DNA of 64,000 nucleotides, from positions 50,789,402-50,853,401 of the forward strand of contig OX359249.1 in NCBI GenBank assembly GCA_947179485.1, given 5' to 3'. The stretch is from Allacma fusca. Its lineage: Eukaryota > Arthropoda > Collembola > Symphypleona > Sminthuridae. A program made the position numbers and the translations under genes. The notes under the pieces were generated by a model, which had not been told where the DNA came from, did not search any database, and worked only from the letters and a program-made list of their open reading frames with translations. This document shows, one piece after another, positions 21,515 to 62,090 of this stretch (positions are counted from its first letter, which is position 1; each line of letters starts with the position of its first letter).

Positions 21515-22360
21515 CAAGGATGAGAAATCGGAAAAATATGAATTTTAATTCGAATTAAAATATTTAAGGCTAAAAATTCCGATTTAAAATACCTAGAGCA
21601 ATATTGAAAATATGAATTCTAATACGGATTTAAATATTATCGAGTATTCGTTCATCATGAATTCCGATTTGAATATTTATTTGAATACTGCTGGTATGCT
21701 GCAAATACAAAGAATTTAATTACGGAAAAAAGTCAACCTTATAAACGTGATATTATTAAAGTTTTGGGAAGCTAGTTTCCCCCGAAGGTCATTAAGTATC
21801 AATTTAAGTGTTTAAAAATACGTTCAACTGATTTTTGGAATCAAAAATTACTAATTGTCTTTCGGCCCATTTGTAGTTACATAAAATAATCTTTAGTTAC
21901 ATAAAAAATCTTTAGTTTCCTAAATCATGTTTAGTTACCTAAAAAATGTATAGTTACCTAAAAAATCTTTAGTTAGCTAAAAAGATCTTGAGTATCAACG
22001 ATTTTGATTACTTGAGTAATTAACTTGTAGAAGCATGTTCATTTCGGATGAAGAAAATATTCGCCAATGCTCTTTGATTAGCTTTACGTTGTAATTTAAA
22101 ATTGCGACAATATTAAATTTGTATTTACGTATGTACACTGAAGAATAAGAATGCGCCATTGAAAACAATGCTTTATTTAAATCGGAATTCAGTAAAAAAT
22201 ATTTGAATACCAATTCCGATTCCAAAAACAATTTTGAATGCAATTTTGAATTAAAATACTTCCTGGGAATTATTTGGGATTCCAATATGAATTAAAATCC
22301 TCAAATATTCGAATATAATTCCGATTCCGATTAGGATACGGATTCCGATTCCCATCCTTG
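21515..22360. mobile_element. hAT element (CAAGGATG family), decayed copy
   Basis: Ends CAAGGATGAGAAATCGG and (reverse complement) CAAGGATGGGAATCGGAATC, flanked by GCTTAAAG (21507-21514) and GTTTAAAG (22361-22368). Near 21760-21880 the minus strand retains a trace of the hAT transposase dimerisation domain. Relatives: 48123-51121, 54355-54958 and 56995-57597. Confidence 0.8.
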
Positions 22361-22953
22361 GTTTAAAGCTAGTGAAATGTGCGAGTTTCCTGAGGCAAGG
22401 TGCCTAAATCGACAGAATATAGTTGGGGAAATTAATTTATAGTGCATTACAATGCATTTAGTTTCAGTATATACATTTTGATGTAAATTTAAATAAGCTT
22501 GCGTATATATGACAATAAAATTAAAATATAATCGGCGCAAGTGGTAGCTACCTTAATGTAATGGAAAGTCTCTCTAAAGGTATGATTGGGGCATGGGATA
22601 TTTTGGCCAAAATCCTCGTATAAATTAAGTCAAACGTCTCCTTGTCCATCCTGTAGTTACATTCAATAATTTGAGAGCCCTTATTTTTTATGATCATAGT
22701 TTATTAGCCACAAAATGTTTATTTATTGTACTAGTTTGTAAAACCAAAAATCATTTACAACTTACCGGAAGTACCTGTGGTGGTTCATGGGATCATCGGC
22801 AAGTTCACAAAGTAATTTATTTCCCCTAGGACATTCGCGCGTGAATCGTTGGAACTATAAATCATCGGGTTGATGACTTCATGAAAGTTGCATGAAAAAG
22901 ATTGGTCCGTGAAAAGTCAATGAAAAATCAAAGCGACTATAAACAAGGCATTA

Positions 22954-37847: not shown

Positions 37848-40230
37848 TGATATTAACAATCATTAAGTATTTACCGACGCAGTTTAGAGTTCTCTGAAAT
37901 TTGGAAACCATCTGGAGTGTTTGAAGCAAATATCACTTGATGTTTCCAAAAAGCTCCCCGGGAAACTTATATACCCTGTAATGATATTATTTGTAGCTTC
38001 CAGTAATTGTACGTGTTAAGAATGAACGAGCACGTCATAAACCACTATATTTTTTTATTTTGGTATTAAGGAGACATTTTGAATGGCACGTTAATTCTTC
38101 TACTTAATTTAAATCAACTACAAGTACATTTCAATTCAACTTTAATTTGTACAAATTTAATTAACGATTTCGATTCGATTTTCTACTTGTAATTAGTAAC
38201 TTCACATATTGAAGCTATCAGTTGGTTTCCGGTAATTGACTGTCAATTAAAAATGCGTTTGTGAAAATAGTTGTTGATACTTGACTTAGCTGCTAAAAAA
38301 TTGACAAACAATGGGAAAAAATCTTTATTGGCAACTTCGTACTGTTTTCCAAAACCTCCATGTGCGTATATTGTCAGACATTGTACACAACTTTAGAAAT
38401 TTACTTTTTGTCCAGCCTGGTCTTTAAATTGGTCAAAATGAACCGCCCTTGTTATCGCAGGTTTGCCTATTTTGTACTGGGTCTTATTATCAATCCAATT
38501 AGTTTACTGAAAGTTTCCAATGTCATGGCGCGGAGAGAAAATAATTTCATCCGAACTGAAACTATTCTTCACAAGCAATGCGTTGGCTGATATAACGGTT
38601 ACAATCAAAGTCCGGCCGAAAGACTTCGTAAAAACAATCTCCTAAGGGCTGAAATTCACGCAGGATAGAGTCCAAAAACTTTCGCTACTGTTAGATGAGT
38701 TGGAAACCCTTGGAAAACATTCCTAAAAGTCTGTCCTCGAACTTGTGCAAAAAGAAAAGTCGGTAATACGTTTCCATCAATTGTGGATAACCAATCAGCT
38801 GTCCATCAGTGGAGCGTCTTTAGAATTTGTGGAAAAAATTATTTCAATTCCTGAGGTGATGAAAATCAAATAAGTGAACTATTTGAAGTTCTCTAATTAA
38901 ATCAGTCAAAGTAGAACTTAACCAAAGAAAAGAACTTAAGAAAAAATAACAAAACCGCTAAAGACCAACGTAAAGGGACCGGAAAAACATTTGGGGCTCG
39001 GGGATGACGATCTCCATCAATAGGGAGTGAAACGGGTGCATGCACCAGCAGTTTGGGAACTCGGTTATGGCGGGACAGGCGTTTGCGTGGGTATTATCGA
39101 TACTGGAGTTCGATGGAGTCAGGATTCTCTCCAAAAATCCTACGTCGGAACAAAAAACTTCGGCTGGATTGACCCACACGAGTTTACGGATAAGCCAACA
39201 GACTTGGGGGGACACGGGACTCCTTGCTTGGGTCCAGTGGTCGGTGATTACGGTCTTGGCGTGGCTCCTGGTGCGAAATGGATGGCATGTCTTGCAACAT
39301 TATCGTCTTTATCGAGAAGACTGGCTATTGCTCTGCCTCCAGTTCATGTTGTGCCCAACTGATTACCTAGGGAAGAATAAGGACTGCTCAACGGCGCATC
39401 GTGTTGTTAATAATAGTTGGTACTACTTTCTGGATGAAGATGACAATGTAATGAGAGAAATTGTCCCTATAGTCTTCGAAGCTGATATAAATTTTATATT
39501 CTTCATTGGGAATTTGGGACACGTCGATTGCAAATCTGGTGGAGCTCCAGGGAGTTACGATGAGTTTATAGGCGTCGGGTACACTAACAGTGAGGACGAA
39601 GTGGAGTGCATGTCTAGCGCAGGTCCAGGTCCATCAGGTATTATTAAGCCTCACCTTGTTGCTCCTGGTGATCTTTTGGTAGTTCCCGAAGCAGACTCGG
39701 GTTCGTACTTTCACCCCGATGGGGAATGTAGTTCTTCTACACCGATGGTGGCTGGAATCGTTGCTCTATTGGTGCAAAAAAATTCGACCTTAAGCAAAGA
39801 CGAGGTCAGGAGCATTCTAATCAAATCAACCGAACCAGTCACTTTTGTGTTGGGATTTTGTGGGGGTATTCTGAACACACAGTTTCCTAACAACATAGCT
39901 TCATTAATGCTTTAGAGGCCATCAACAAGGTTCCTTCTTTGAAGAAGTATAGTGTTTATATTTACTTGCTCAAATATTTCTCATCATGTTGCGTGTGTTG
40001 CAATGTACTGCGAATGATTTAACAATATTTTAACAGATAAAAAATAAAATCTTTTACTTATTTCGACTCGGGCTCCTCGCAGCTTCAAGTAGTAGTTGCA
40101 ACTTGCAACTTACCATTTCAAGTACAACTTTAAGTCAATTTATTAAAAAAGATAAATTGTGAATAATTGAAGTCAACTTCAATTTGCAACAAATTTTTTA
40201 GTTAAAAATTCAGTTTTTACTTCAATAGTT
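37848..40230. repeat. Dispersed duplicate of the 8063-10160 region
   Basis: From TTTACCGACG to the AT-rich 3' flank the sequence parallels 8066-10160 throughout, including the S8 pseudogene and its 3' flank. It has a private 170-180 bp insertion at about 37985-38165 and a smaller one near 38230. It lacks the MITE at 6739-8062, preserving the empty target site. Confidence 0.85.
38360..39915 (+). pseudogene. S8 subtilisin-like (bacillopeptidase F-like) protease pseudogene, copy 2
   Basis: Same layout as copy 1: the signal-like segment follows ATG 38438, then the propeptide, Asp box GIIDTGV, His box GGHGTPCLG, Asn box FIGNLGHVDC, and Ser box SSSTPMVAG with KDEVRSIL downstream. It shares with copy 1 the frame change just before HLGL (near 38960) but keeps the frame across the site broken in copy 1 near 9105. 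It has its own lesions: stops near 38644 and 38724, TAG in the segment before GVKR (near 39023), and a frame change near 39300. From there the frame is open to 39915. It is dead, but independently damaged after duplication. Confidence 0.8.
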
Positions 40231-41214: not shown

Positions 41215-41981
41215 TGTACGGACGTACGGGTTGTGGTACTAGCAGCCTAAGTGAAATGTGAATGTAAGGATGCTTATGGGCAGATGGTAACAATAATAAT
41301 AGCAAAGGCTGATAACACTGTAATTGATCTCTGCAAAAGCTAAGCGAACTAGTGTTTATTTACGTCAATTAAAAGAGTTAAAAAGTCAAAGCAAATAATA
41401 AAAAGGTTTTAAGAATGAGTTGACAAAGATAAAGGCAGAGTCAAGTATTTTGACAAGAGCAAAATCAAGCAGAGTAACAGACTGCTGGGTTCCAAGTGAC
41501 ACAGATTTTTGGGAGAGTAGTCATATTTATACATTACATAAGATCGCCCATTTCACAGGTAGAAATTCTAGCCTGGAACTTGAGCAACACAAGATAAGCA
41601 AATGATTGTAGTGGGTACAGTGGAAGGACGGCATTCACATAAGAAGACATTGTAATACATACTACCTGCCACACTTCATGCTGACAAGTAAGTTACATGA
41701 TATGCACATAATGGACCTGACCTTAAGTTATCATAACTTTTGACCCATTTGAGTGAACTTAACCAAAGTACACTCTAACAGCATCTACTTACTCCAGGCT
41801 ACCCGATGGTAACATAAAAACTCTACGATCTTATGGTAGGAAAGAAGTTACAAGGCAAAATATGGAAATCATGTCCTTTCATACCTTTCCATAGGGAGTA
41901 CATAATGGTGGATGACAAAAATAAGAAAACTAAAGTAATTATTGAAATTATGACAGTAATAAAGCAATATACGCCTAAACA
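41215..41981 (-). repeat. 3' LTR of BEL/Pao 2
   Basis: Plus-strand ends TGTACGGACGTACGGG and CGCCTAAACA. The same sequence as 47206-47972 apart from one noticed difference. Short open frames within it are not genes. Confidence 0.95.
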
Positions 41982-42034: not shown

Positions 42035-45000
42035 TCACTCAAAGGATGATGAAGAGCTTGCTGATGATGGTTGATCGAATGGTAAAGGGCACAATTTCAC
42101 TATGGGTCTCTTCAATTCCCCACCTGAGGTTTTTACCGTAACAACGCGAACTAAACCGTCGGGTCCAGGATGAGTATGAAGGATTCTTCCCAGCTTCCAT
42201 TCAGTAGGTGATAACCTCTCGTCCTTCATAAGGACCATTGTACCTACAGCTAAATTCTCACTCACGGAGTTCCACTTGTGTCGTTGTTGGAGCTGATGCA
42301 GGTATTCATTGTGCCATCTCCTCCAGAAATGCTGTGCTAGCTGCTGACAATGTTGCCAGCGGGAGAGGCGGTTGAGCTTAATATCGGTGAGATCGTGTTC
42401 GGGAAGTGCGTTGAGCGGAGCACCGATGAGAAAATGTCCCGGAGTGAGAGCAGAGAGATCCTCCGGGTTGCAAGACAGCGGAGCAAGAGGACGTGAGTTG
42501 ACACAGGATTCTACCTGGGCAAGTAAGGTGGCATACTCCTCGAAGTTCAGGGATGTTGTACCAATCACTCGTCGTAGATGCCCCTTCACAACCCTCACTC
42601 CGGATTCCCAGAGGCCCCCAAAGTGAGGAGAGGAGGGCGGATTGAAGTGTCATTTGACACTTCGAGCGGAAAGGAATTGCTGGATCCGCTGACCTGGGTC
42701 TGCCGATTGCACGAACTCATAGATCCACTTAATCTCCCTGTCTGCTCCCACGAAGTTTGTCCCGCAATCACTGTAAATATCAGAACAGAGACCTCGACGA
42801 GCAATAAACCGTTTGAATGAAGCCATAAAGGAGTCTGACGTTAGATCGCTAACCAACTCGAGATGAATGGCACGGGTCACAAAACACACGAACACGCATA
42901 CATATGACTTACAGGTTTGATTGCTCCTACCACCAATTGTTCGACGGAGAGTAAAAGGACCTGCAAAGTCCACGCCACATCGTTGAAACGGCCGTGTTGG
43001 AATGACTCTAGCTGCAGGTAAGTCACTCATCTTCTGATTGCAAGCCTTGGCACGATGACGGAAACACACTAGACAGCGCTTTACATATTGACGAACAACA
43101 TCTCTTCCTGAAATAATCCAGTAGGTCTGCTGAATCATGGACAGCAGGAGTTGAGGACCTGCGTGAAGGCCGCGAATATGTTCCTCAGCAACTATCAATT
43201 GAGTTAATGCACAATTCTTTGGGATTACGATGGGATACTTTTTGTCAGGAGTGAGGTCAGCGTTACGAAGGCGACCCCCCACTCTCAGCAGCCCGTCACT
43301 TCCTAAAAAGGGACTCAGACATAGTAACTTGCTTTTGTTGGGGATGGGCTGGTTGGAGGTTAAACATTTCAGCTCGGACGGAAAGAAGGTCATTTGAACT
43401 AACTTTATGCAAGAGTTCAGAGCTTGGTTTAGCTCAAGTACAGAAAGTTCTCCCTTCAGTTGGATAGCTTGTGGATGCAAATAATTATGTAGAAACCGCC
43501 TGCAGTAAGCCACTACTCTTTTTAGTTTAGTTAATGACGGCATTTTCTCAATTATGGTAATATCAAGGCTTACATGACAAGAGTGTATTTTCACTTTCCT
43601 TTCTTCAGTGGGCACTGTTGACGTAGAACCAATTTCCTGGGAGAAATTGAAAGCCGGTTGCATGACCCAGGACGGTCCATTCCACCAGAGGGAATCTTCC
43701 TTCAAGTCACTAGGGTCAATGCCTCTTGATGCTACATCTGCAGGATTTTCGTGGCTGATGACGTGGTGCCAATGATGTCGTGGGTAGGATTGTTGGATTT
43801 TGGAAACACGATTAGCAACGAAGACCTTCCATCTTGACGAAGACGAGGAAAGCCAGTCCAAAACTATTGTGGAATCAGTCCACATGTATACATTTGTTAT
43901 GGGTTGTAGTACGGACTTACGGACTGAGTCAATCAGAGACACCAGAAGCGTGGCACCACATAACTCTAGCCTTGGGATGCTCTCTTGGTTGACGGGAGCC
44001 ACCCGAGTCTTTGAGGTGAAAAGTTGCACCTTACAATCCCCTTCATCATTGGTAGTCTTGAGGTACACGACGGCGGCGTAAGCTTTCTGTGAGGCATCAC
44101 AGAACCCTAAAATCTCGTAACAAGTGGGATTAGGCAAACATACAAAGCGAGGAATCTTAATTAATTCAATGGAGCTCAAATTCGAGCGATATGCATTCCA
44201 CTCTTCAACAACATTTGCTGGTAGAGATTCATCCCATGAGATTTTCAAAGCCCATAAAGACTGAAAAAGAATTTTTGTTCGGATGGTAATTGGTGCAAGC
44301 CACCACATTGGATCAAAGATTTTGGAAATATCAGAAAGTAATGTACGCTTTGTGTGCAGGGGTCTACGGAGTGGAAGATTGACGGAGAAGGAAAACATAT
44401 CAGTAGCGGGGTTCCATTGTAAACCAAGGGTTTTGACTGTATTGTCAGAATCAAATACAAGAGGTAGTTTTGTCTCACAATACTCGGAAGGAAGGCGCTG
44501 TAAGAGACTGGGGCTGTTGGATGACCATTTGCGTAGTTCAAGATGAGCACTGGAGAACATCTTGAGTAGTTGGCTTTGGAGAACTTCGGCTTCGGCAGGG
44601 CTGTTTGTACCTGTCATCAGGTCATCTACATAGGTATCGCGTTGGGTTACCTCAGAAGCCAGTGGATATCGAGAAGACTCATCACGGGCTAGTTGATTGA
44701 GGGAGCGTGTTGCAAGATATGGAGCGGAAGCATGCCCAAACGTCACTCCGGTCATTCTCCAATCTTCTATTGGGTCATCTGGAGTTTCTCGCCAAACAAT
44801 GCGCTGTAAATCCCGGTCATCTGGATGCACTAAAAATTGAGGATACATCTTCCGGACGTCTGCTGTGATGGCTACCATCCACATCCTAAATCTCATTAAA
44901 ATGGCAAGCAAGTCATCTTGAGTCTTGGGACCCACCATGCATTTCTCATTTAATGAAATACCAGAGGATGACTTCGCCGATGCGTCAAAAACTACCCGAA

Positions 45001-46747
45001 CCTTGGTAGTTGTGCTGCTGTCTTTAATGATACAATGATGCGGCATATAATATGTTGATGTGGATTCTCTTACTTGATGGGGAGGTACTCGTTCCATATG
45101 CCCAAGTTGAATGTATTCACGGAGGACGTCAACGTACTGTTTACGTAAATCTGGATTGGAGTGAAGCCTCCTCTCAACTTGCAGGAGTCGTCGGATGGCC
45201 ATGTCTCGTGTTGAACCCAAGGGTGGAGATGTCTCCTTAATGGGTAGCCGAACCATGTATCGTCCATTGTCAAGACGTTGAAAGGTACCGTTGTAGTGCT
45301 TTTCACAGGCAGACTCTTTAGAAGTTAGAGTTGGCATTTCGGGAAGGCTCTCAAGCTCCCAAAATTTCTGCATAATGGACTCAAGTTGGCAATTAGCATG
45401 ATGTGTTCGGACAATAGTTGGCTTACTTGAGTTTATCGTTCCCGATACAACCCATCCAAACTGGGTGTCAGTAGCATTAGGCATTCCAGGTAGACCCATC
45501 AGAACCGGTGTTGGTCGTTGGAGGGAGGAAAATAGATCAGCACCGATAAGCAAATCGATGTCTTCTGGTTTATAATAAAATGGACCTGCAAGTTTCAGTC
45601 CCTGGATGTATGTTAGCTTGGCTGGATTGACCATGGAAGAGGGTAACCGACCTGTGACTTGTTTCATGACATAAGCATCAATTGTTGCAGAATATTCATA
45701 AATACGTGATGATACCTGTATCTGAACCATTTGCGTAGATGATCCTACAGTTGTGGAAGAAACCCCCTTAATAGTTAAGTTGATAGATTTAGTAGGCAAT
45801 GCTAATTTCTTCACACACGTCTCGGTTACAAAGCTGGCTTCTGAAGCTGAATCCAAAAGAGCACGAAAAGGCATCCAGTTCCCCTGCTTATCTTGAATGT
45901 TGATAATTGCAGTGGGCAAAAGAACATGGGACGGTAACTGATGACGATAAGTTGTCAGGCTGGAAATTTGCGGAGTTGAGCTGTCAATGTGGACCATTGT
46001 GTGATGTTTCTTCTGGCATTTCTTGCATGTAGATGTTGACGGGCATGTGTTTGTCCTATGACCGCTAACCAAACAATTAAAACACAAATTCTTTGTCTTC
46101 AGAGTATCCCGTCTTTCTGAAACTGACTGCTTGTTAAAGGTTGGGCATTTAAAGGTGAGGTGAGAATCATTACAAACTCGGCATTTTGCATCAATAGATC
46201 CATGATGAGATGAGACTTTCTTGGCATGGTTATGAGAACTGGAATTAGGCTTAGCTTTAATGGTTCCTGACTCGCTAATTGCTCGACATCTTTGGTCCAA
46301 GAATTCGCATAATTCTTCAAAGGTAGGGATGGCAGAGGGTTTAATTGATAATACCCACTGTCGATGAGTTTCGGCATCCAGCTTGTCGGCAATAATAAAG
46401 ATGAGCCAGGAATCCCAATGTTCTACAGGCTGCTTCAAGACCTTCAGGGCTTGGAAGCACTCCTTAGTTGTATCGATAAGCTTCCGTAATACTGATCCAT
46501 CCTCATCCTTCATGATTGGTTGGGTCGTCAATCTACGCAAAATAGCAGTAATAATTTCACGCTTATTATCGAACCTGTGCTTTAGGAGTTTCCAGGCCTC
46601 GTCATAATTGTCATCTGTGGAGGGAAGATGCTTGATCACGTTCTTGGCTTCTTTGGAGAGGCAATTCTGTAGGTACTGCAGCTTCTGGGATGACGACAGA
46701 CTGTCATTGCTGTTGATGGCACAGTTGAAGAGGTCTTGGAAAGACAT
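42035..46747 (-). CDS. BEL/Pao 2 gag C-terminus and pol (knuckles, protease, RT, RNase H, integrase), one in-frame stop
   Basis: A 1571-codon frame read from 46747 to 42035, interrupted once by TGA at 42652-42650. Domains in order: DUF1759 gag region (QYLQNCLSKEAKNVIKHLPS), two zinc knuckles (CRVCNDSHLTFKCP, CFNCLVSGHRTNTCP), aspartic protease with LLDSASEASFV, RT with ITADVRKMYPQFLV and YVDDLMTG, RNase H (FCDASQKAYAAVVYL, RLELCGATL, WTDSTIVLDWL), integrase zinc region, catalytic core with VDFAGPF, YSDCGTNF and HFGGLWESG, and the C-terminal DUF5641-like part (WKLGRILHTHPGPDGLVRVV). The stop lies just before HFNPP, inside the integrase core. In the family this polyprotein supplies all enzymes for cDNA synthesis and insertion. 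Confidence 0.9.
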
Positions 46748-47127
46748 CCAGTCCGTGAGATTCCCATCAAATGAGGAGTAGGAAGATCAGGTAGCTTTAC
46801 CTTTGCCTTGACAGGAACGGGTGTACTGGTTGCCAGGCTGGGTCGTAAAATCTCAAGTTCCTCCAAGAGACTTACATGTCGGTTGTACAGGAAGTCGTAT
46901 TCGGCATCCTGCGTGTCTTCTGCAGCTTGATCCTTGCACAATGGGTAGATTTTGGAATGGTGAGACTCAATGGATTTTGAGCACTGTTCCAACTTCTTGG
47001 ATGTTTCGTCAAAACGAATTTGGGATAACTTAGCCCCATTCTGGGCTGGGAGGTCTTTGTCAATGGTGGTCAACTTGGATTTTATTGCTCGCTGGGTTCG
47101 CACTAGAGAATCGTAAGTGTCAGCCAT
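46748..47127 (-). CDS. BEL/Pao 2 gag N-terminus
   Basis: ATG at 47127 starts MADTYDSLVRTQRAIKSKLT, a helical gag N-terminus, and runs to VKLPDLPTP. About nucleotide 46775 a one-base frame change separates it from the long gag-pol frame, which picks up with FDGNLTDWMSFQD. It could be a mutation; programmed frameshifting is not usual in BEL. Confidence 0.8.
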
Positions 47128-47182
47128 TGTTCACAAATCACAAAACTGGTCGTATTTCCACTAAACAAAGATTCACGGACGT

Positions 47183-47200
47183 ATCCGGTTCGAAGGACCA
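47183..47200 (-). promoter_or_regulatory. Primer-binding site of BEL/Pao 2, tRNA-Tyr type
   Basis: Minus strand TGGTCCTTCGAACCGGAT, 5 nt after the 5' LTR. It is complementary to a tRNA 3' end ...CGAAGGACCA, which matches tRNA-Tyr from memory. Confidence 0.7.
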
Positions 47201-47205
47201 AAAAA

Positions 47206-47972
47206 TGTACGGACGTACGGGTTGTGGTACTAGCAGCCTAAGTGAAATGTGAATGTAAGGATGCTTATGGGCAGATGGTAACAATAATAATAGCAAAGGC
47301 TGATAACACTGTAATTGATCTCTGCAAAAGCTAAGCGAACTAGTGTTTATTTACGTCAATTAAAAGAGTTAAAAAGTCAAAGCAAATAATAAAAAGGTTT
47401 TAAGAATGAGTTGACAAAGATAAAGGCAGAGTCAAGTATTTTGACAAGAGCAAAATCAAGCAGAGTAACAGACTGCTGGGTTCCAAGTGACACAGATTTT
47501 TGGGAGAGTAGTCATATTTATACATTACATAAGATCGCCCATTTCACAGGTAGAAATTCTAGCCTGGAACTTGAGCAACACAAGATAAGCAAATGATTGT
47601 AGTGGGTACAGTGGAAGGACGGCATTCACATAAGAAGACATTGTAATACATACTACCTGCCACACTTCATGCTGACAAGTAAGTTACATGATATGCACAT
47701 AATGGACCTGACCTTAAGTTATCATAACTTTTGACCCATTTGAGTGAACTTAACCAAAGTACACTCTAACAGCATCTACTTACTCCAGGCTACCCGACGG
47801 TAACATAAAAACTCTACGATCTTATGGTAGGAAAGAAGTTACAAGGCAAAATATGGAAATCATGTCCTTTCATACCTTTCCATAGGGAGTACATAATGGT
47901 GGATGACAAAAATAAGAAAACTAAAGTAATTATTGAAATTATGACAGTAATAAAGCAATATACGCCTAAACA
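47206..47972 (-). repeat. 5' LTR of BEL/Pao 2
   Basis: Pairs with 41215-41981. It would hold the promoter of the element on the minus strand. Confidence 0.95.
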
Positions 47973-47977
47973 TCATT

Positions 47978-48122
47978 GGTAGAAGAGATATTTAGTGCAA
48001 GTTTTAGTGTCTTGGATGCAGTTGAATTCACCAAAAGAGAAATTTTATGCTCTGAGTAAGAATGAAGACATCATAAGGCTTAATGAAGATGTATTAGATA
48101 GATTAAATGGTGATTCAAAAAC
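47978..48122 (+). pseudogene. Helitron helicase pseudogene, segment 2
   Basis: Continues segment 1: LVEEIFSASFSV then ALSKNEDIIRLNEDVLDRLN, the conserved Helitron helicase region after the Walker motifs (N-x-D-x2-LN). It ends in DSKT at the 8-bp duplication of the hAT insertion and resumes at 51122. Confidence 0.7.
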
Positions 48123-48238
48123 CAAGGATGGGAAATCCGAAAAATATTAATTCTAATTCGCATTAAAATATTCAAGGCGAAGAATTCCGTTTTAAAATAC
48201 CTACAGCAATACTGAAAAATATGAATTCTAATACGAAT

Positions 48239-48481
48239 TTAAATATCCTCGAGTATTCGTACATTATGAATTCCAATTTGAATATTTATTTGAATACTGC
48301 TAATATACTGAAAGTACAAAGAATTATAATTACGGGAAAAGTTCAGCCTTAGAAACATGATATCATCAATGTTTTGGAAAACTGGTTTCCCCCGCAGGTC
48401 ATTAATTATAATTTTAAGAGCTGAAAAAACACGTTCAACTGATATTTGAACTCCAACATTACTAATTTTCTTTCGACCCAT
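48239..48481 (-). pseudogene. hAT transposase C-terminal (dimerisation) remnant
   Basis: An 80-codon frame with SVERVFSALKIIINDLRGKP and IDDIMFLRLN, the hAT C-terminal dimerisation signature. The catalytic part is absent. The same remnant recurs in the other CAAGGATG copies, so the family moves as an internally deleted form. Confidence 0.7.
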
Positions 48482-49653
48482 TTTTAGTTACCTATACAAA
48501 TTTTAGTATCAACGATTTAAATTACTTGAGTAATTAACTTGTAGGACAAACAATAGTTTTGAGCACAACCGTTAAAAGCCACTGACAAGTGCTATTTATT
48601 CTACTCTATTTTACGTAGAATGCGGAAGCATGTTCATTTCGGACGAAGAAAACGTTCGCCAATGCTCTTTGATTACCTTTACGTTGTAAGTAACAAATTG
48701 CGGCAATTTTAAATTTATATTTAAGCATGTACACCATTGAAAACAATACTTTATTTTAATCGGAATTCAGTAAAAAATATTTGAATGCCAATTCCGATTC
48801 CAAAAATATTTTTGAATTCGATTTTGAATTAAAATACTTCCTGGGAATTATTTGGAATTCCAATATGAATTAAAATCCTCAAATTTTCGAATATAATTCC
48901 GATTCGGATAGCGATTAGGGTTCCCAGACGTCCCGGAATGACACTCCTTGTCCCGTGTCCCGGAAGATTGTATTCCGGGACACGTAAATGTCCCGGAAGT
49001 GTCAAGTTCAAAAAGTTATGAAAATTATGAGTTAATAAGAAAAATAAAATATTTCTTTCTACAGAATTCAAACGAGAGCATCATCTACATAAAACTAATA
49101 AAACCATGAAAATACGATTACAAACGTAATAAAATCGTTTAAGCAGCAGGAAATCGTTTGCGTTTTCTTCTTATATTGCAGTAGCTGATTTTGCTTTTGC
49201 CGACAAAATATAATGAGTTTTGTAAACAATAATTAATTTAAATATAATTTATTTGTATTAAATTAGTCATAATTACATTCTAACGTATTGTTGTTATACT
49301 ATAATACATTGGTTTTTCCGTGCCTCATTGATGGTCATTGCGCGTTCTAGTTCTCGTGAAAGAAGTGTTGAAGAATGTGAAGGAAATGCATGCAGTCTTT
49401 TGGTTTAATATGTTATTGATTAATCACAAAGTTCTTTCAAAATTAATTAACAATTAAATAATGCAGTTTTGAACAGTTCACAGTTGTACATAATCATTTT
49501 TAATGTGTTTTTATAAAATGAAATCTAAACTCTTTTTTTTTTAATAATTTAAAACTGGATTACGTGATACCATAATAGAAACAAACTGTTTCCACAAAAG
49601 GCTTAATTCTGGTGACCACTAACAGTTGATACTTAAGACCAGAAACCTTGTTA

Positions 49654-49700
49654 GCTGCAGACACCGGTGTTTCGTCCTATTTGGGACTCGTCAGTACAGC
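49654..49700 (-). ncRNA. Type I hammerhead ribozyme motif, copy 1
   Basis: The minus strand has all conserved core parts in order: stem I 5' strand GCTGTA, core CTGACGA, stem II GTCC/GGAC with loop CAAATA, core GAAA, a 3-bp stem III ACA/TGT capped by CCGG, cleavage site GTC, then TGCAGC closing stem I (one G-U pair). Cleavage would fall between 49660 and 49659. Very short stem III is typical of animal retroelement hammerheads. Confidence 0.85.
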
Positions 49701-50073
49701 GCAAACAGAAAAAAATGACTAGCGACTGACTTCGTGAACCGTCAGTGGCAGAATGAAGATTGACGTAGAAAATAAAAATATTCTTTCTCAACTTTAATTG
49801 CTGCTCGAAATAATTCAATGTTTGATTTTTGGAAAAGAGATGGTTACATCTCAATATCCATGGTGCTCAACGGAGCAGCTATTTACAAAACTTGAATTCC
49901 GACCAGTACGGATTGATTATAAAGAGGCAAAGAGTTTTTCATATCACGAATTTGATAATTTTAATCATTTAAAACTGGATTACGTGATACCATGATAGAA
50001 ACAAACTGTTTCCACAAAAGGCTTAATTCTGGCGACCACTAACAGTTGATACTTAAGACCAGAAACCTTGTTA

Positions 50074-50120
50074 GCTGCAGACACCGGTGTTTCGTCCTAT
50101 TTGGGACTCGTCAGTACAGC
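50074..50120 (-). ncRNA. Type I hammerhead ribozyme motif, copy 2
   Basis: Identical over the 47-nt motif to copy 1 and exactly 420 nt away. A transcript through both would release a 420-nt unit. Confidence 0.85.
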
Positions 50121-50239
50121 GAAAACAGAAAAAAATGACTAGCGACTGACTTCGTGAACCGTCAGTGGCAGAATGAAAATTGACGTAGAAAATAAAAATA
50201 TTCTTTCTCAACTTCAATTGCTGCTCTTTTTATTTAGCT

Positions 50240-50935
50240 GATTTGAATAAAACTCCACCGACGAGATCATTGAAAAGGTCTACGTTTTACCACTTTAAAT
50301 GGGAAGAGGATGACAATACCGAAAATTGGTAACGTCAAAATGGCAAAGATGAACATATTGCCAAGTGTTCAGAGTGTAAAACGACTTTCGCTGTAAAGTA
50401 TGAAGGATTTGGTTCTGTTAAATCTCACAGGGAAAGTTCCAAACATAAAAACCTAGTGAACGGAGCTGCTGAAACTAAAAAAGCTTTGTTTCTTTCAAAC
50501 CGAAAAATCTGGAGAAGATTTGAGTTATTTAAAAGTTGCAAGCATTTATCTTTATGTTCAGCACAATCACAGTTACAATAGTCTGGATTGGCTGCACCGA
50601 CTGGGGTTTGGACCGACCAATCAAAGGAATTCTCAGTATCCATGGCTTATTTACTAAATCTTGCCGGTGAACTCGGTATTAAAATAAATGAGGACAAGCT
50701 GTACAATAAATTTTGCTTACTTCGTCAAAGTTATGAGTTTTTGGCTGTGACTACATGGGTCGGTGGAAACTGGTTTTTGCAAGAGTTTTTAAAAAAAGAA
50801 CAATGTCCTGAACCATTCAAGCTTGTATCGTTCGTACTGTCAATTACTGGGGGGGTTTCAGCCTAATGAAGAAAGTTTGGACAGCAGAGAGAAACTTAAT
50901 GTCAACGGAACTTGTGAAGTCAGGTTTAATATGCC
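50240..50935 (+). pseudogene. BED-finger hAT-like transposase remnant
   Basis: The plus strand reads FKWEEDDNTENW, then CSECKTTFAVKYEGFGSVKS and HRESSKHK, a BED zinc finger (C-x2-C ... H-x4-H). Another frame has LAGELGIKINEDKLYNKFCL and WVGGNWFLQEF, and a third keeps a C-terminal hAT-like WxAERNLMSTELVKSGL segment. At least three frames are involved and the catalytic core is missing. Confidence 0.6.
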
Positions 50936-51121
50936 CCTTTCATGTTGCGATTTTTTTCTTTTTTGAACGAACAAGAAAACAAGAAAATGTTATTAGATTC
51001 CAAAAAGCCTGAAAAATACAATTAGGAATAATGTATACATAAAATTTTAAAAAATATTTTGTCCCGGAATGACGTTTCAAAACAGTGGGAACCCTAATAC
51101 CGATTCCGATTCCCATCCTTG

Positions 51122-51232
51122 CCAAAAACATACTGTAATATTGAGAGTTTGGTATCAGATGATGTACAAGAACAATTGAACTTTCCCCAGGAGTTTCGGC
51201 ATTCACTTACGCCGACAGGAATGCCTCCACAT
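51122..51232 (+). pseudogene. Helitron helicase pseudogene, segment 3
   Basis: Continues from segment 2: TYCN-like start, IESLVSDDVQEQLNFPQEFR, then HSLTPTGMPPH, the conserved Helitron helicase segment. Sequence similarity stops at about 51232. Confidence 0.75.
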
Positions 51233-51371
51233 CAGTGATGGGTAACGTTATTATCGATAAAATCCTAGTATCGTTTAATGAGATATAACATATTTCACTT
51301 GATTAACAAAAACTAAGCGCAAACCCAAACCACTGGACAGCAAATTACATAAACCGAATCACAACAACGTT
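51233..51371. other. Short non-coding segment
   Basis: Starts CAGTGATGGGTAACG, which looks like a hAT end, but no matching partner with a target duplication was found. It ends in the target duplication of the non-LTR element. Confidence 0.4.
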
Positions 51372-51384
51372 ATTATCCGTTGTT

Positions 51385-52109
51385 CAATATATAAGAAGGG
51401 CGACAAAAACTCACCTTGTAACTACAAACCAATTTCTTTAGCCAACACAATAGTAAAGCTATTTACGATGCTCCTGTCAAAGCGACTGCACACATGGATC
51501 GAAAAACATAAGGCGTTATCAGAATCCCAAGCAGCATACAGAAAGCATAGAAGGTGTTCAGACCACTTGTTTGTATTAAACACTAATACAGAATGCGCTG
51601 GCAAACCAGAAGAAGTTGTACTGCTTATTCGTAGACCTGTCAAAGGCATTTGATTCCATTAAGAGGAAACGTCTATGGGATAGGTTAGAAACGCTGGGAG
51701 TACCTGCCTACATTCTTCTGAAGATACAAGAAATATACAGTCAAGCAAAGGCAAAAATCCAAACATCAGGGGGATATACAAATTTCATGGACGTACTTAA
51801 TGGAGTACTGCAGGGGGAACACTGAATCCGACGTTATTCTCTATATATATTGATGAAATCACAGAATTGCTTGTCCAATCCAAAGTACGAGGTGCGAAAC
51901 TGCTTACCACTGAAGTTACTATCCTACTTTACGCGGACGACATCGTATTAACAGCAGACTCCCCCGCAGACCTCCAAACCCAGATCGGAATTCTCAGCAG
52001 ATTCTTCAGCAGAAACGATCTCAACATAAATTTGGAAAAAACTAAGGTGGTAATTTTTGGAAAAGGACCAGTACCAACAAAGAAAAACAAAGTTATGGCA
52101 ATGGAATTC
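51385..52109 (+). pseudogene. Non-LTR reverse transcriptase, first part
   Basis: The plus strand reads CNYKPISLANTIVKLFTMLL, SQAAYRKHRRCSDHLFVLNT, FVDLSKAFDSIKRKRLW, then after a frame change ITELLVQSKVRGAKLL and the catalytic box LLYADDIVL, followed by FGKGPVP. Frame changes near 51640 and 51825 make it defective. The 5' endonuclease is missing through 5' truncation. It breaks at ATGGAATTC, the 9-bp target of the inserted element. Confidence 0.8.
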
Positions 52110-52293
52110 ACTAGGACGTAAAGACAGCTCCTAGTTGCTCGAGTGGTAGCTCGGACTTAGAAAATTTTTGCTCTCCTCTGCTCTGTACTCTGCCTGCTTT
52201 TTACATTGCAAGTTGCTCCTCACAATGTTGCTTGCTTTACTCTATGGTACTCCATCCATCTCTCACAGATTATGTAGACACTATACAAACTTG
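52110..52293. repeat. Left terminal inverted repeat, 184 bp
   Basis: Reverse complement of 57730-57913; no difference noticed. Confidence 0.9.
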
Positions 52294-53376
52294 AACCTCC
52301 AAATGCAACTTCCACACTTACTTACACACCTTACCTTTGGGTCCGTACAAATATAACATAATTCATGTGGATCGTAAAACATGGAATTTTATTATTATTC
52401 CTCCCCTTCTTATGGCATGTATGAGCAATAACAATAATTGAGTAGAGGTAGTCAATCCAGACAACAACAACTACAAATTCTTCAAAGTTAATTACATTAT
52501 GAATCTTTTAAATGCAAGGACGTTCTTGGTTTAAATTATACTGAGGATAATAATTATTATTATTGCATGTTAAATGCTAAGTATTATTTACTCAATGAAT
52601 TACTGGGAGCTTTTTTTTAATCAGAAAATCCAAGAAACTGTTGACTGGAATTGTTATTCACTGTGTGTAAAAATATATGCATGTTATCACACTATAAGCA
52701 CTGGTGTGGCTCTATGTGGCTTTTGAGTTTGCAGTAACAAAAAAAATATATAAGGATGAGGTCCCGAAATGCCAGGAAGGAAGCAGCGTTTGTGTGTGTA
52801 GAAAAACCTCCACAATTAAATTATAACTTTGGATAAATCATCCATCAACACATGTCAGACATATAATGAATTAAAATAAAATGTTGAAACGCGTCCAAGA
52901 ATCAAAGAGTCCATAGTTCATTCAAATATTTTGCGACAAAGTCTAATAATTGTAGTAACGTTGTCCAGCATAATGCATATTAACAAGGACAATATCAAAG
53001 CAAGGCTGGCTAACCAATATTTTATAAGCTTAAATAGTTTGACAGTTTTAAACGTACCATGTAGCATTTATTTATCGCAACACTTAATTATTTAAAAACA
53101 CTACTATTAATAATTAATCACACAAGATTTAATTGATATAAAGGTACGATATTTTTTGGGAATCTAGTACCTCCGGGAATTAATAGGGAATTAAAGTATT
53201 TGAATGATATTGAAATTTATAGAAATGTTTTGAATACATTGGATTGGAATTTTGACGTTTATGAAACAAATACATTTGAATTGACAATAAAACCCTTTAG
53301 GATTAATTTTAATCGTGATTGTTTCCTTATTTTTCGAATATTCCAGCTTTGCAAAATGGGAAGATATAATAATATG

Positions 53377-54283
53377 TAGGGAATGTCGATTGAAAATGCC
53401 CTTGCATATATGCCTGCCAAGCTGAATACGCCCAATATGCCCGCCAACGTGCCATATTTTTGGGCATATTGGCACATTGGGAAAATGCCCTGAATTTGGG
53501 CATTTTGGGCATATTCGACATTTTAGGCATTTTCAGCCGGGAATATTCTGCATTTCTGTCATAAATTTATAATAATAAATCATTAATGACATCATAAATA
53601 ATAAATGTCACTATTAAAATGAAATCCTATTAAAGGCGTACATGGCAATTTTGTTTAAATGTATTATATTTCAAAAGATACTCGCTGTGTATCATACAGA
53701 CAATTTATATTGAATTATTGACGAATACAATTTTGTTGGATTTTGTATAAAAATAATGAGAAGACTAAAAGTGATAAATACGTCATCAACAAATCCTCCC
53801 CATCAGAGCTTTGATTTGTATAACTTTCATCCACCTCCAGCGTAAATAAAACTTCTCAAATTTTATGACCAGTGCTTCGAGGTTGGCATAGTTTATTACA
53901 TTCCAAAATGTGAGTTTTGTCCAGTAGTAACAATGGTTGATGGTTAGACGTTTAAAAACTACAACTCCTACAATTGTATACTGACCAGATTTATTTACCT
54001 GTGCTAAAACCGTCGAGTAATAGTTTTGTTATACCGATTGAGCGGGGTAGTTTGCGGTAGTAGCAAGTGGAAGTAGTAGCAGGGACCAATAATGTCTGGA
54101 AAAGGTAATCGACCCGAAAATTTGAACTGAATATGCCCAGGAATGAAAATGCCGAAAATGTCCGTGCCGAATATGCCCAAAATCAACGTATTTGCCCAAA
54201 GTTGAAAATGCCCAAAATGCCCTGGCATTTTGGGCAGGCATGATGCCCAATATGCCATGGCATTTTCAAATCGACAATCCCTA
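53377..54283. mobile_element. hAT-like MITE rich in GGGCATTTT motifs
   Basis: Ends TAGGGAATGTCGATTGAAAA and (reverse complement) TAGGGATTGTCGATTTGAAA, flanked by perfect 8-bp ATAATATG (53369-53376, 54284-54291). Both subterminal blocks are made of GGGCATTTTGGGCATATT-type motifs. The duplicate is at 55996-56920. Frames such as MPKMSNMPKMPK arise from this repeat and are not genes. Confidence 0.8.
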
Positions 54284-54354
54284 ATAATATGTAGGAGAAC
54301 ATTTATTTTACCGTTGCCCACACTGTAGACTAGAATAAAATCTTAGAGGCATTT

Positions 54355-54958
54355 TTTGTAAAAAAATATTCAAGGCGAAGAATTCGGATTTAAAATACCT
54401 ATATCAATACTGAAAAATATTAATTCTAATACGGATTTAAATATCCTCGAGCAATAGTTCATTATGAATTCCGATATGAATATTTATTTGAATACTCCTA
54501 GTATACTGAAAATACAAAGAATTGAATTACTTAAAAAGTTCAACCTTAGAAACTAGATATCATCAATGTTTTGGGAAGCTAGTTTCCCCCGCAGGTCATT
54601 AAGTAAAATTTTAAGAGCTGAAAAAGCACGTTCAACTGATATTTGAACTCTAACATTACTAATTTTCTTTCGGCCCATTTTTAGTTCGCCAATGCTCTTT
54701 GATTAACTTTAAGTTGTAACTAAAACATTGCGACAATTTTAAATTTATATTTAAGTATGTACACTTGATGAAATACACCATTAAAAACAATACTTTATTT
54801 TAATCGGAATTCAGTAAAAAATATTTGAATGCCAATTCCGATTCCAAAAATGTTTTTGAATGCGATTTTGAATTAAAATACTTCCTGGGAATTATTTGGA
54901 ATTCCAATATGAATTAAAATCCTCAAATTTTCAAATCTAATTCCGATTCACATCCTTG
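54355..54958. mobile_element. CAAGGATG-family hAT fragment, left end missing
   Basis: Matches 48165-48910 from AATATTCAAGGCGAAGAATT to the right end CATCCTTG. The left TIR is absent. The duplicate is at 56995-57597, where a hAT dimerisation trace (SVERAFSALKILLNDLRGKL) is open on the minus strand. Confidence 0.75.
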
Positions 54959-55245
54959 TTTATGAGTTGAGTATACTTTGATTGATATGTACTAAAATGC
55001 AACTGCAAGGGTTAGCTGAGTCCTTGAAGTCGTATTTAGGACCATAAATATTTAAGTACACAACCGTAGCAAGTACTGAGGGTACATAGGTGCAAGTTTG
55101 TATAGTGTCTACATAATCTGTGAGAGATGGATGGAGTACCATAGAGTAAAGCAAGCAACATTGTGAGGAGCAACTTGCAATGTAAAAAGCAGGCAGAGTA
55201 CAGAGCAGAGGAGAGCAAAAATTTTCTAAGTCCGAGCTACCACTC

Positions 55246-55445
55246 NNNNNNNNNNNNNNNNNNNNNNNNNNNNNNNNNNNNNNNNNNNNNNNNNNNNNNN
55301 NNNNNNNNNNNNNNNNNNNNNNNNNNNNNNNNNNNNNNNNNNNNNNNNNNNNNNNNNNNNNNNNNNNNNNNNNNNNNNNNNNNNNNNNNNNNNNNNNNNN
55401 NNNNNNNNNNNNNNNNNNNNNNNNNNNNNNNNNNNNNNNNNNNNN
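55246..55445. other. Assembly gap (200 N)
   Basis: Exactly 200 undetermined bases, a placeholder length. Near-identical sequence on either side suggests overlapping contig ends that were not merged. Confidence 0.95.
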
Positions 55446-55995
55446 TTGGATAAATCATCCATCAACACATGTCAGACATATAATAAATTAAAATAAAATG
55501 TTGAAACGCGTCCAAGAATCAAAGAGTCCATAGTTCATTCAAATATTTTGCGACAAAGTCTAATAATTGTAGTAACGTTGTCCAGCATAATGCATATTAA
55601 CAAGGACAATATCAAAGCAAGGCTGGCTAACCAATATTTTATAAGCTTAAATAGTTTGACAGTTTTAAACGTACCATGTAGCATTTATTTATCGCAACAC
55701 TTAATTATTTAAAAACACTTTACTATTAATAATTAATCACACAAGATTTAATTGATATAAAGGTACGATATTTTTTGGGAATCTAGTACCTCCGGGAATT
55801 AATAGGGAATTAAAGTATTTGAATGATATTGAAATTTATAGAAATGTTTTGAATACATTGGATTGGAATTTTGACGTTTATGAAACAAATACATTTGAAT
55901 TGACAATAAAACCCTTTAGGATTAATTTTAATCGTGATTGTTTCCTTATTTTTCGAATATTCCAGCTTTGCAAAATGGGAAGATATAATAATATG

Positions 55996-56920
55996 TAGGG
56001 AATGTCGATTGAAAATGCCCTTGCATATATGCCTGCCAAGCTGAATACGCCCAATATGCCCGCCAACGTGCCATATTTTTGGGCATATTGGCACATTGGG
56101 AAAATGCCCTGAATTTGGGCATTTTGGGCATATTCGACATTTTAGGCATTTTCAGCCGGGAATATTCTGCATTTCTGTCATAAATTTATAATAATAAATC
56201 ATTAATGACATCATAAATAATAAATGTCACTATTAAAATGAAATCCTATTAAAGGCGTACATGGCAATTTTGTTTAAATGTATTATATTTCAAAAGATAC
56301 TCGCTGTGTTTCATACAGACAATTTATATTGAATTATTGACGAATACAATTTTGTTGGATTTTGTATAAAAATAATGAGAAGACTAAAAGTGATAAATAC
56401 GTCATCAACAAATCCTCCCCATCAGAGCTTTGATTTGTATAACTTTCATCCACCTCCAGCGTAAATAAAACTTCTCAAATTTTATGACCAGTGCTTCGAG
56501 GTTGGCATAGTTTATTACATTCCAAAATGTGAGTTTTGTCCAGTAGTAACAATGGTTGATGGTTAGACGTTTAAAAACTACAACTCCTACAATTGTATAC
56601 TGACCAGATTTATTTACCTGTGCTAAAACCGTCGAGTAATAGTTTTGTTATACCGATTGAGCGGGGTAGTTTGCGGTAGTAGCAAGTGGAAGTAGTAGCA
56701 GGGACCAATAATGTCTGGAAAAGGTAATCGACCCGAAAATTTGAACTGAATATGCCCAAAATGCCGAATATGCCCAGGAATGAAAATGCCGAAAATGTCC
56801 GTGCCGAATATGCCCAAAATCAACGTATTTGCCCAAAGTTGAAAATGCCCAAAATGCCCTGGCATTTTGGGCAGGCATGATGCCCAATATGCCATGGCAT
56901 TTTCAAATCGACAATCCCTA
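55996..56920. mobile_element. hAT-like GGGCATTTT MITE, duplicate copy
   Basis: Same element and same flanking ATAATATG as 53377-54283, so a duplication of the locus and not an independent insertion. Confidence 0.8.
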
Positions 56921-56994
56921 ATAATATGTAGGAGAACATTTATTTTACCGTTGCCCACACTGTAGACTAGAATAAAATCTTAGAGGCATTTTTT

Positions 56995-57597
56995 GTAAAA
57001 AAATATTCAAGGCGAAGAATTCGGATTTAAAATACCTATATCAATACTGAAAAATATTAATTCTAATACGGATTTAAATATCCTCGAGCAATAGTTCATT
57101 ATGAATTCCGATATGAATATTTATTTGAATACTCCTAGTATACTGAAAATACAAAGAATTGAATTACTTAAAAAGTTCAACCTTAGAAACAAGATATCAT
57201 CAATGTTTTGGGAAGCTAGTTTCCCCCGCAGGTCATTAAGTAAAATTTTAAGAGCTGAAAAAGCACGTTCAACTGATATTTGAACTCTAACATTACTAAT
57301 TTTCTTTCGGCCCATTTTTAGTTCGCCAATGCTCTTTGATTAACTTTAAGTTGTAACTAAAACATTGCGACAATTTTAAATTTATATTTAAGTATGTACA
57401 CTTGATGAAATACATCATTAAAAACAATACTTTATTTTAATCGGAATTCAGTAAAAAATATTTGAATGCCAATTCCGATTCCAAAAATGTTTTTGAATGC
57501 GATTTTGAATTAAAATACTTCCTGGGAATTATTTGGAATTCCAATATGAATTAAAATCCTCAAATTTTCAAATCTAATTCCGATTCACATCCTTGTT
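56995..57597. mobile_element. CAAGGATG-family hAT fragment, duplicate copy
   Basis: Counterpart of 54355-54958; same missing left end. Confidence 0.75.
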
Positions 57598-57729
57598 TAT
57601 GAGTTGAGTATACTTTGATTGATATGTACTAAAATGCAACTGCAAGGGTTAGCTGAGTCCTTGAAGTCGTATTTAGGACCATAAATATTTAAGTACACAA
57701 CCGTAGCAAGTACTGAGGGTACATAGGTG

Positions 57730-57913
57730 CAAGTTTGTATAGTGTCTACATAATCTGTGAGAGATGGATGGAGTACCATAGAGTAAAGCAAGCAACATTG
57801 TGAGGAGCAACTTGCAATGTAAAAAGCAGGCAGAGTACAGAGCAGAGGAGAGCAAAAATTTTCTAAGTCCGAGCTACCACTCGAGCAACTAGGAGCTGTC
57901 TTTACGTCCTAGT
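57730..57913. repeat. Right terminal inverted repeat, 184 bp
   Basis: Reverse complement of 52110-52293. Confidence 0.9.
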
Positions 57914-61480: not shown

Positions 61481-61506
61481 AGAAAGGTTATAGAGTAATT
61501 GTGGTA

Positions 61507-62090
61507 GCTTGGTGCAAACTACTTGGTACCAAAGTTGGACTTTGAATTTTGTCGACTTGATTCACTAAAAATGTAATATCTTGTGAACAAATGGGAATTT
61601 CGGCAAAATGATTACATGGCCGAGTAGGTGTAGTCGTATGAAGTTGAAATAAACTATAATCAGCTTGGTGCAAACTACTTGGTACCAAAGTTGGACTTTG
61701 AATTTTTTCGACTTGATTCACTAAAAACGTAATATCTTTTGAGAAAATGGCAATTTCGGCAAAATGATTACATGGCCGAGTAGGTGTAGTCGTATGAAGT
61801 TGAAATAAACTATAATCAGCTTGGTGCAAACTACTTGGTACCAAAGTTGGACTGAATTTTGTCGACTTGATTCACTAAAAATGTAATATCTTGTGAACAA
61901 ATGGGAATTTCGGCAAAATGATTACATGGCCGAGTAGGTGTAGTCGTATGAAGTTGAAATTAACTATAATCAGCTTGGTGCAAACTACTTGGTACCAAAG
62001 TTGGACTTTGAATTTTTTCGACTTGATTCACTAAAAACGTAATATCTTTTGAGAAAATGGGAATTTCGGCAAAATTTTTTCGACTTGATT
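61507..62090. repeat. Tandem array, about 156-bp unit, alternating ABAB
   Basis: Units start GCTTGGTGCAAACTACTTGG at 61507, 61663, 61819 and 61973. Units 1 and 3 share GTCGACTTG and TCTTGTGAACAAATGG; units 2 and 4 share TTCGACTTG and TCTTTTGAGAAAATGG. The fourth unit is cut short. This is a two-unit higher-order repeat of about 310 bp. The open frame through it is a by-product. Confidence 0.85.

Follow-up and report, generated by a model that had tools for sequence, protein, structure and literature searches.

The genome of the springtail Allacma fusca contains a 688-bp insert, made up of 1.64 copies of a 420-bp unit (36% G+C), that is probably a metazoan non-LTR retrozyme, copied from circular RNA with a fixed internal start. 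The insert was analyzed within a stretch of 64,000 nucleotides, herein referred to as the window, where it occupies positions 49538–50223 on the minus strand, so oriented that the 5' end of its RNA corresponds to the high coordinate. Its dispersed relatives share one 3' end, have variable 5' ends, and commonly carry target-site duplications.

Two type I hammerheads had been proposed in the original prediction, in direct orientation on the minus strand. Both were matched by the Rfam model RF00163 (Hammerhead_1) at the predicted sites, 49654–49700 for the 3' copy and 50074–50120 for the 5' copy, which consists of the same 47 nt. In this covariance-model search, which had been suggested together with the prediction, each copy scored 46.8 bits, above the gathering score of 34 (E = 6.4e-9 for the 64-kb window). 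The catalytic core is kept, as had been described: the Rfam alignment contains CUGACGA, GAAAC, and GUC, and zero non-standard pairs were flagged. With up to three mismatches allowed, the 26-nt core pattern has two matches in the window, and 100 shuffled versions gave none. Judged by the covariance model and the conserved core, both motifs are true type I hammerhead ribozymes, and both are predicted to self-cleave.

The predicted cuts, whose positions were computed, fall at 49660/49659 and 50080/50079. Their spacing of 420 nt agrees with the earlier value. The RNA expected between them (49660–50079, minus strand) is a candidate circular RNA of 420 nt that would arise by cleavage at both sites and circularization. 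Release of a unit-length RNA from a directly oriented pair, also proposed originally, is supported by the other genomic copies, which look as if they had been copied from such an RNA. Folded as a circle, the 420-nt RNA was mildly more stable than shuffled sequences (z = −2.1; 6 of 200 shuffles as low), with no excess pairing (paired fraction 0.59, vs. 0.59 in the shuffles). The hammerhead was not the minimum-energy fold of the 47-mer or of the 77-mers in unconstrained ViennaRNA folding, which takes no account of tertiary contacts. The predicted fold of the 47-mer contains stem II and the greater part of stem I, but its core ACTG pairs with CGGT from stem III. The 77-mers likewise adopted non-hammerhead folds. 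The short stem III has a self-complementary sequence (ACACCGGTGT), so intermolecular pairing would also be possible.

A diverged subfamily with 82–88% identity was found at seven loci (L108, L110, L111, L115, L117, L124, and L127). The stem II loop of this subfamily is CAACTA, or CAACAA in L124, and the U-G pair of stem I is replaced by C-G in five of the seven loci. Both outer flanks of stem I, GTT...AAC, are present in 5/7 loci, which fits the proposed contact between stem I and loop II without proving it.

The two ribozymes are embedded in 268-bp direct repeats separated by 152 bp and differing by six mismatches (97.8% identity). The repeat at 49539–49806 represents the 3' lap and the one at 49959–50226 the 5' lap, that is, a partial second lap. 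Comparison with other loci places the ends of the insert between candidate target-site duplications CTCTTTTT at 49530–49537 and 50224–50231, recognized from the sequence and from a family-wide test. The fixed 3' end of the family, TTATTAAAA, is located at 49536–49542 (minus strand); at other loci the next nucleotides are often TTA. This end is taken as the putative start of reverse transcription (the ATTAAAATTA site). No open reading frames (ORFs) of at least 100 aa were found between 47128 and 54003, and thus the retrozyme unit is non-coding.

The retrozyme is hosted by a broken element at 48916–51097, with the ends TAGGGTTCCCA and TGGGAACCCTA and the flanks ATAGCGAT / ATACCGAT, alike at seven of eight positions. 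From its end structure, we take this element to be hAT-like, and the part at 50226–51097 is presumably a transposase-like remnant with stops. A copy of the outer repeat that has no hAT-like insert was found at 22222–22388, where the alignments of the two flanks meet (identity of 89.6% over 125 bp on the left and of 77.8% over 54 bp on the right).

Several other features were found in the window. A BEL/Pao retrotransposon occupies 42035–47127, and around it two LTR-like stretches of 300 nt (at 41215 and 47206) share 100% identity. Among the closest relatives of the main BEL/Pao ORF are proteins from Allacma fusca, with 78% and 74% identity over 69% and 54% of that ORF, respectively. A direct duplication with a spacing of about 2.6 kb lies at 52829–57586, has 99–100% identity in three stretches of 274–300 nt, and is accompanied by inverted arms at 52110–52298 and 57725–57913. 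A 156-bp unit is repeated in tandem at 61506–62075 (3.7 copies, 94% matches), and an ORF at 39040–39915 matches subtilase (Peptidase_S8, 63 bits).

For the genome-wide census, exact matches of the ribozyme core were collected from the 392.7-Mb assembly, and all the loci were read. In total, 69 exact cores were found at 65 loci, spread over several contigs, and the reversed-pattern control gave 0 matches. Two cores 420–421 bp apart were found at only four loci (the window, L009, L010, and L011), and the other 61 loci have a single core. Loci with mutated cores, such as L026 and L047, are omitted from this census. Two loci with 3' ends elsewhere or lost (L111 and L118) were dropped before counting, which leaves 63 usable copies of up to 826 nt. 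Strict alignment gives 818 nt for L009 and 826 nt for L010, vs. 846 and 861 nt by blastn. Minor states common to at least four copies, counted over 53 loci, were found at none of the 47 ribozyme sites vs. 15 of the 420 sites of the whole unit. An earlier sample came from a search of the assembly with the insert (40 copies scored of 465 candidates) and is biased toward long copies; Rfam was run on 20 of these copies, and 17 reach the cut-off. Searches of viral and of prokaryote sequence collections with the ribozyme core gave 0 matches each, in line with an animal origin of the element. Two retrozyme copies with matching flanks lie 2.9 kb apart on C1 at 74.74 Mb (L093 and L094) and are probably one duplicated locus.

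The copies share a 3' end. In 58 of the 65 loci it lies −1 to +11 nt from unit position 420, at a distance of about 121 nt on the 3' side of the ribozyme cut. The same end was found in five of the seven loci of the diverged subfamily. The 3' end lies elsewhere in 7/65 loci, and two copies, L034 and L022, extend 47–53 nt past the usual end. The 5' ends are variable. Target-site duplications with a score of at least 9 were found in 34 of 63 loci vs. 30 of 927 shuffled flank pairs, which points to dispersal by retrotransposition. The 20-nt flanks are A+T-rich, with A+T fractions of 0.75 and 0.72 vs. 0.64 farther out (40 copies). Inverted head-to-head copies, as described for Penelope elements, were found at none of the 40 loci checked. 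A second sample was picked by the last 102 nt alone and contains 37 loci, two of them representing one duplicated locus. All 37 copies start upstream of the ribozyme cut, and only one starts within 3 nt of it; the templates were thus probably continuous across the cut.

LINE machinery also leaves a fixed 3' end together with truncated 5' ends, target-site duplications, and flanks rich in A+T, and the window contains a further ORF with an RVT_1 match. An alternative reading would thus be a SINE-like family with inactive ribozymes, mobilized by a LINE that copies linear transcripts from a locus with two ribozymes. We consider this rather unlikely. A linear two-unit template would have two starts, and use of the inner one would bring the 5' genomic flank into the daughters, but a blastn comparison of the 5' flanks (up to 400 nt, 65 loci) gave zero matches of these flanks to one another. 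The junctions inspected have no common poly(A) or simple-repeat tail, and the variants common to the laps of one copy, described below, also argue against a linear template.

More than one unit is present in 18 of the 63 usable copies. In the four two-ribozyme copies, the laps of one copy differ at 3, 1, 0, and 6 of 265 positions, vs. 6–15 differences between different copies. Many copy-specific variants are present in both laps of the respective copy, and no variants marking the same lap in different copies were found among these four. The test was extended to 12 copies in which the second lap is at least 29 nt. A copy's own 3' lap was unbeaten as the closest relative of its 5' lap in nine of them, with ties in four of the nine; in the remaining three (L014, L017, and the copy in the window), other copies resemble a lap more than its partner lap does. 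Such likeness between laps is predicted if the copying enzyme travels round a single circle beyond one full turn. It would also be produced by gene conversion, and two full ribozymes are present in only four copies. An origin of the longer copies by DNA duplication or gene conversion, after insertion of shorter copies, which would leave the likeness of the laps without bearing on a circle, nevertheless appears improbable. The 18 loci exceed one lap by varying amounts, and in 15 of them a target-site duplication with a score of at least 9 surrounds the whole insert (one of these loci lies in a microsatellite).

The lengths of the copies, taken from the 65-locus census and not from the 40-copy sample, also suggest circular templates. 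Drop-off per nucleotide was 0.0046 between 161 and 420 nt, 0.0172 between 420 and 485 nt (13 events), and 0.0042 beyond 485 nt (5 events). When window starts were scanned blind at six widths, the strongest window was 421+65, and 2 of 200 constant-rate simulations were as extreme. Other widths after position 420 were weaker, with P from 0.0004 to 0.026 (for example, 0.026 for 30 nt and 0.022 for 50 nt). This peak at one lap is read as the enzyme probably meeting its own start. It may alternatively be a sequence-specific stop, because the unit positions past one lap are invisible to the census in the first lap, where stops at the same positions leave copies too short to be counted.

GIY-YIG matches were found 59 times in the genome, mostly with equal or near-equal scores and some with open frames of up to 871 aa. 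The ORF C10:10139427-10141976, one open frame of 859 aa, has matches to RVT_1 (48.4 bits) and GIY-YIG (29 bits), which were scored on separate pieces of a tandem pair that was read in three pieces. The presence of reverse transcriptase and GIY-YIG in one ORF identifies it as a Penelope-like element. The 3' ends of this family are also fixed: all ten copies inspected (L096–L105) depart at GGTTGATATTA or no more than about 3 nt from it, as judged by eye. The end site of the Penelope-like element, ATGGTTGATATTA, is located 13 nt from the start codon. A candidate minimal hammerhead (CTGAAGA...GAAA, by pattern only) was found upstream of the start of a Penelope-like ORF, at 495–530 of L095 (C10); Rfam, run on two Penelope-like stretches (L095 and L096), did not report a hammerhead.

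The last ~90 nt of the retrozyme (49539–49628, minus strand) resemble the 3' end of the Penelope-like element. In a 3'-anchored alignment of the two tails, 25 of 46,663 genomic windows scored as high for 45 nt, 7 of 46,327 for 60 nt, and 3 of 45,645 for 90 nt, as did 4 of 12,662 and 1 of 19,096 composition-matched windows; these windows overlap, some coming from overlapping loci, one Penelope-like family was compared, and the box of likeness was spotted by eye before testing. The unanchored local comparison was not significant (548 of 11,614 windows), and shuffles scored as high in 11/500 cases for 124 nt, 70/500 for the last 80 nt, and 312/500 for the whole unit. The shared tail box has no special conservation among the retrozyme copies, with common variants at 3 of its 32 sites.

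The most likely mover is the enzyme of the genome's Penelope-like element, favored because the 3' end of that element is similarly fixed and the tail of the retrozyme is alike. The chances appear evenly balanced for the fuller reading, that the retrozyme tail is of the Penelope type, that the Penelope enzyme starts on the circular RNA at a fixed site, and that the genome records its laps and the one-lap peak.

The abundance of this family also brings up a pseudo-LTR of a Penelope-like element or Terminon, since both are described as bearing hammerheads in tandem pseudo-LTRs (PMC7761336). Such an origin is very improbable: the stretch from 47128 to 54003 has no ORF of at least 100 aa, so reverse transcriptase and GIY-YIG are not beside the ribozyme, which is a canonical type I with stem III, and the Penelope-like family has a different candidate motif that Rfam did not report. 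That the repeats are inactive tandem or satellite DNA in which a hammerhead arose by chance is hardly credible: the first animal hammerheads came from satellite DNA according to PMC7229834, but the loci here are dispersed across several contigs, bear target-site duplications and one common 3' end, and the reversed control pattern had no matches.

Retrozyme copying from circular RNA, the preferred reading, would proceed through the following cycle. A transcript of a two-ribozyme copy would cut itself twice and release the 420-nt RNA, which a host ligase would close into a circle. A reverse transcriptase, presumably that of the Penelope-like element, would open A+T-rich DNA and begin to copy the circle at a fixed site, about 121 nt past the point where the ribozyme cut had been joined. 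Copying would run for about 0.3 to 2 laps, and exit from the circle would be 3.7 times readier in the 65 nt after a full lap than before. New circles could be formed only from daughters of at least about 582 nt, which have two ribozymes (4 of the 65 loci).

We assign the element to the metazoan non-LTR retrozymes. No springtail retrozyme or hammerhead repeat was reported among the matches listed in open-licence PubMed Central; in one such search, the single listed paper that mentions both springtails and the ribozyme deals with fungal viruses. Retrozyme circles have been seen in animals, and the insertion enzyme and its template were inferred, as described in PMC7229834 and PMC7761336. According to the relevant passage of the latter review, a conserved motif that would permit deduction of the animal-retrozyme enzyme is absent. 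The unusual point of the springtail family is its clean genomic record of retrozyme copying: 65 insertions that share their start point, laps that can be counted, and a Penelope-like element in the same genome with a similar tail make the questions of enzyme and template testable in a small arthropod. The Penelope-tail reading, if true, would provide evidence from genome sequence on two points, the circularity of the templates and the enzyme behind the movement of animal retrozymes.

Among known systems, the metazoan non-LTR retrozymes described by Cervera and de la Pena (2020; PMC7229834) are likewise non-coding direct tandems of a few hundred bp with type I hammerheads and less than 50% G+C, and they too share their genomes with Penelope-like elements. 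The unit of 420 nt is just over the RNAs of ~170–400 nt given in the abstract of that paper, the text of which names repeats of 150–450 bp. The retrozymes described there form long arrays, whereas the springtail copies are mostly single-core and 5'-shortened with one 3' end. Circles were observed for the former; the circle of the springtail retrozyme is a prediction.

PAc, a Penelope-like element of Anolis (PMC11167929), similarly has an internal start downstream of the hammerhead cut and A+T-rich targets. By arithmetic on the published numbers, the start lies 85–92 nt from the cut in PAc vs. about 121 nt in the retrozyme. An optional longer tail of PAc has its counterpart in the extended copies L034 and L022 (47–53 nt further). 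Unlike the retrozyme, PAc encodes its own enzyme; unprocessed RNA is its main in vitro substrate, and its ribozyme needs protein (PMC11167929). Partial tandems, 5' truncation, short target-site duplications (8–10 bp), and an optional 3' tail are described for the Penelope of Adineta vaga (PMC3846280), which agrees with the family analyzed here, but that element encodes reverse transcriptase and endonuclease and often has an inverted pseudo-LTR, both absent from the retrozyme.

In plant LTR retrozymes, two ribozymes bound a circularizing unit (PMC4918200, PMC7229834, PMC7761336), as is proposed for the springtail. These elements differ in having type III ribozymes, a size of 600–800 nt, LTRs with primer-binding site and polypurine tract, and target-site duplications of 4 bp. 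Hammerheads in repeated DNA are also described for SMalpha of Schistosoma, which is of type I and SINE-like (PMC8490949), and for pDo500 of cave crickets (PMC2837043), with different hosts and sequences.
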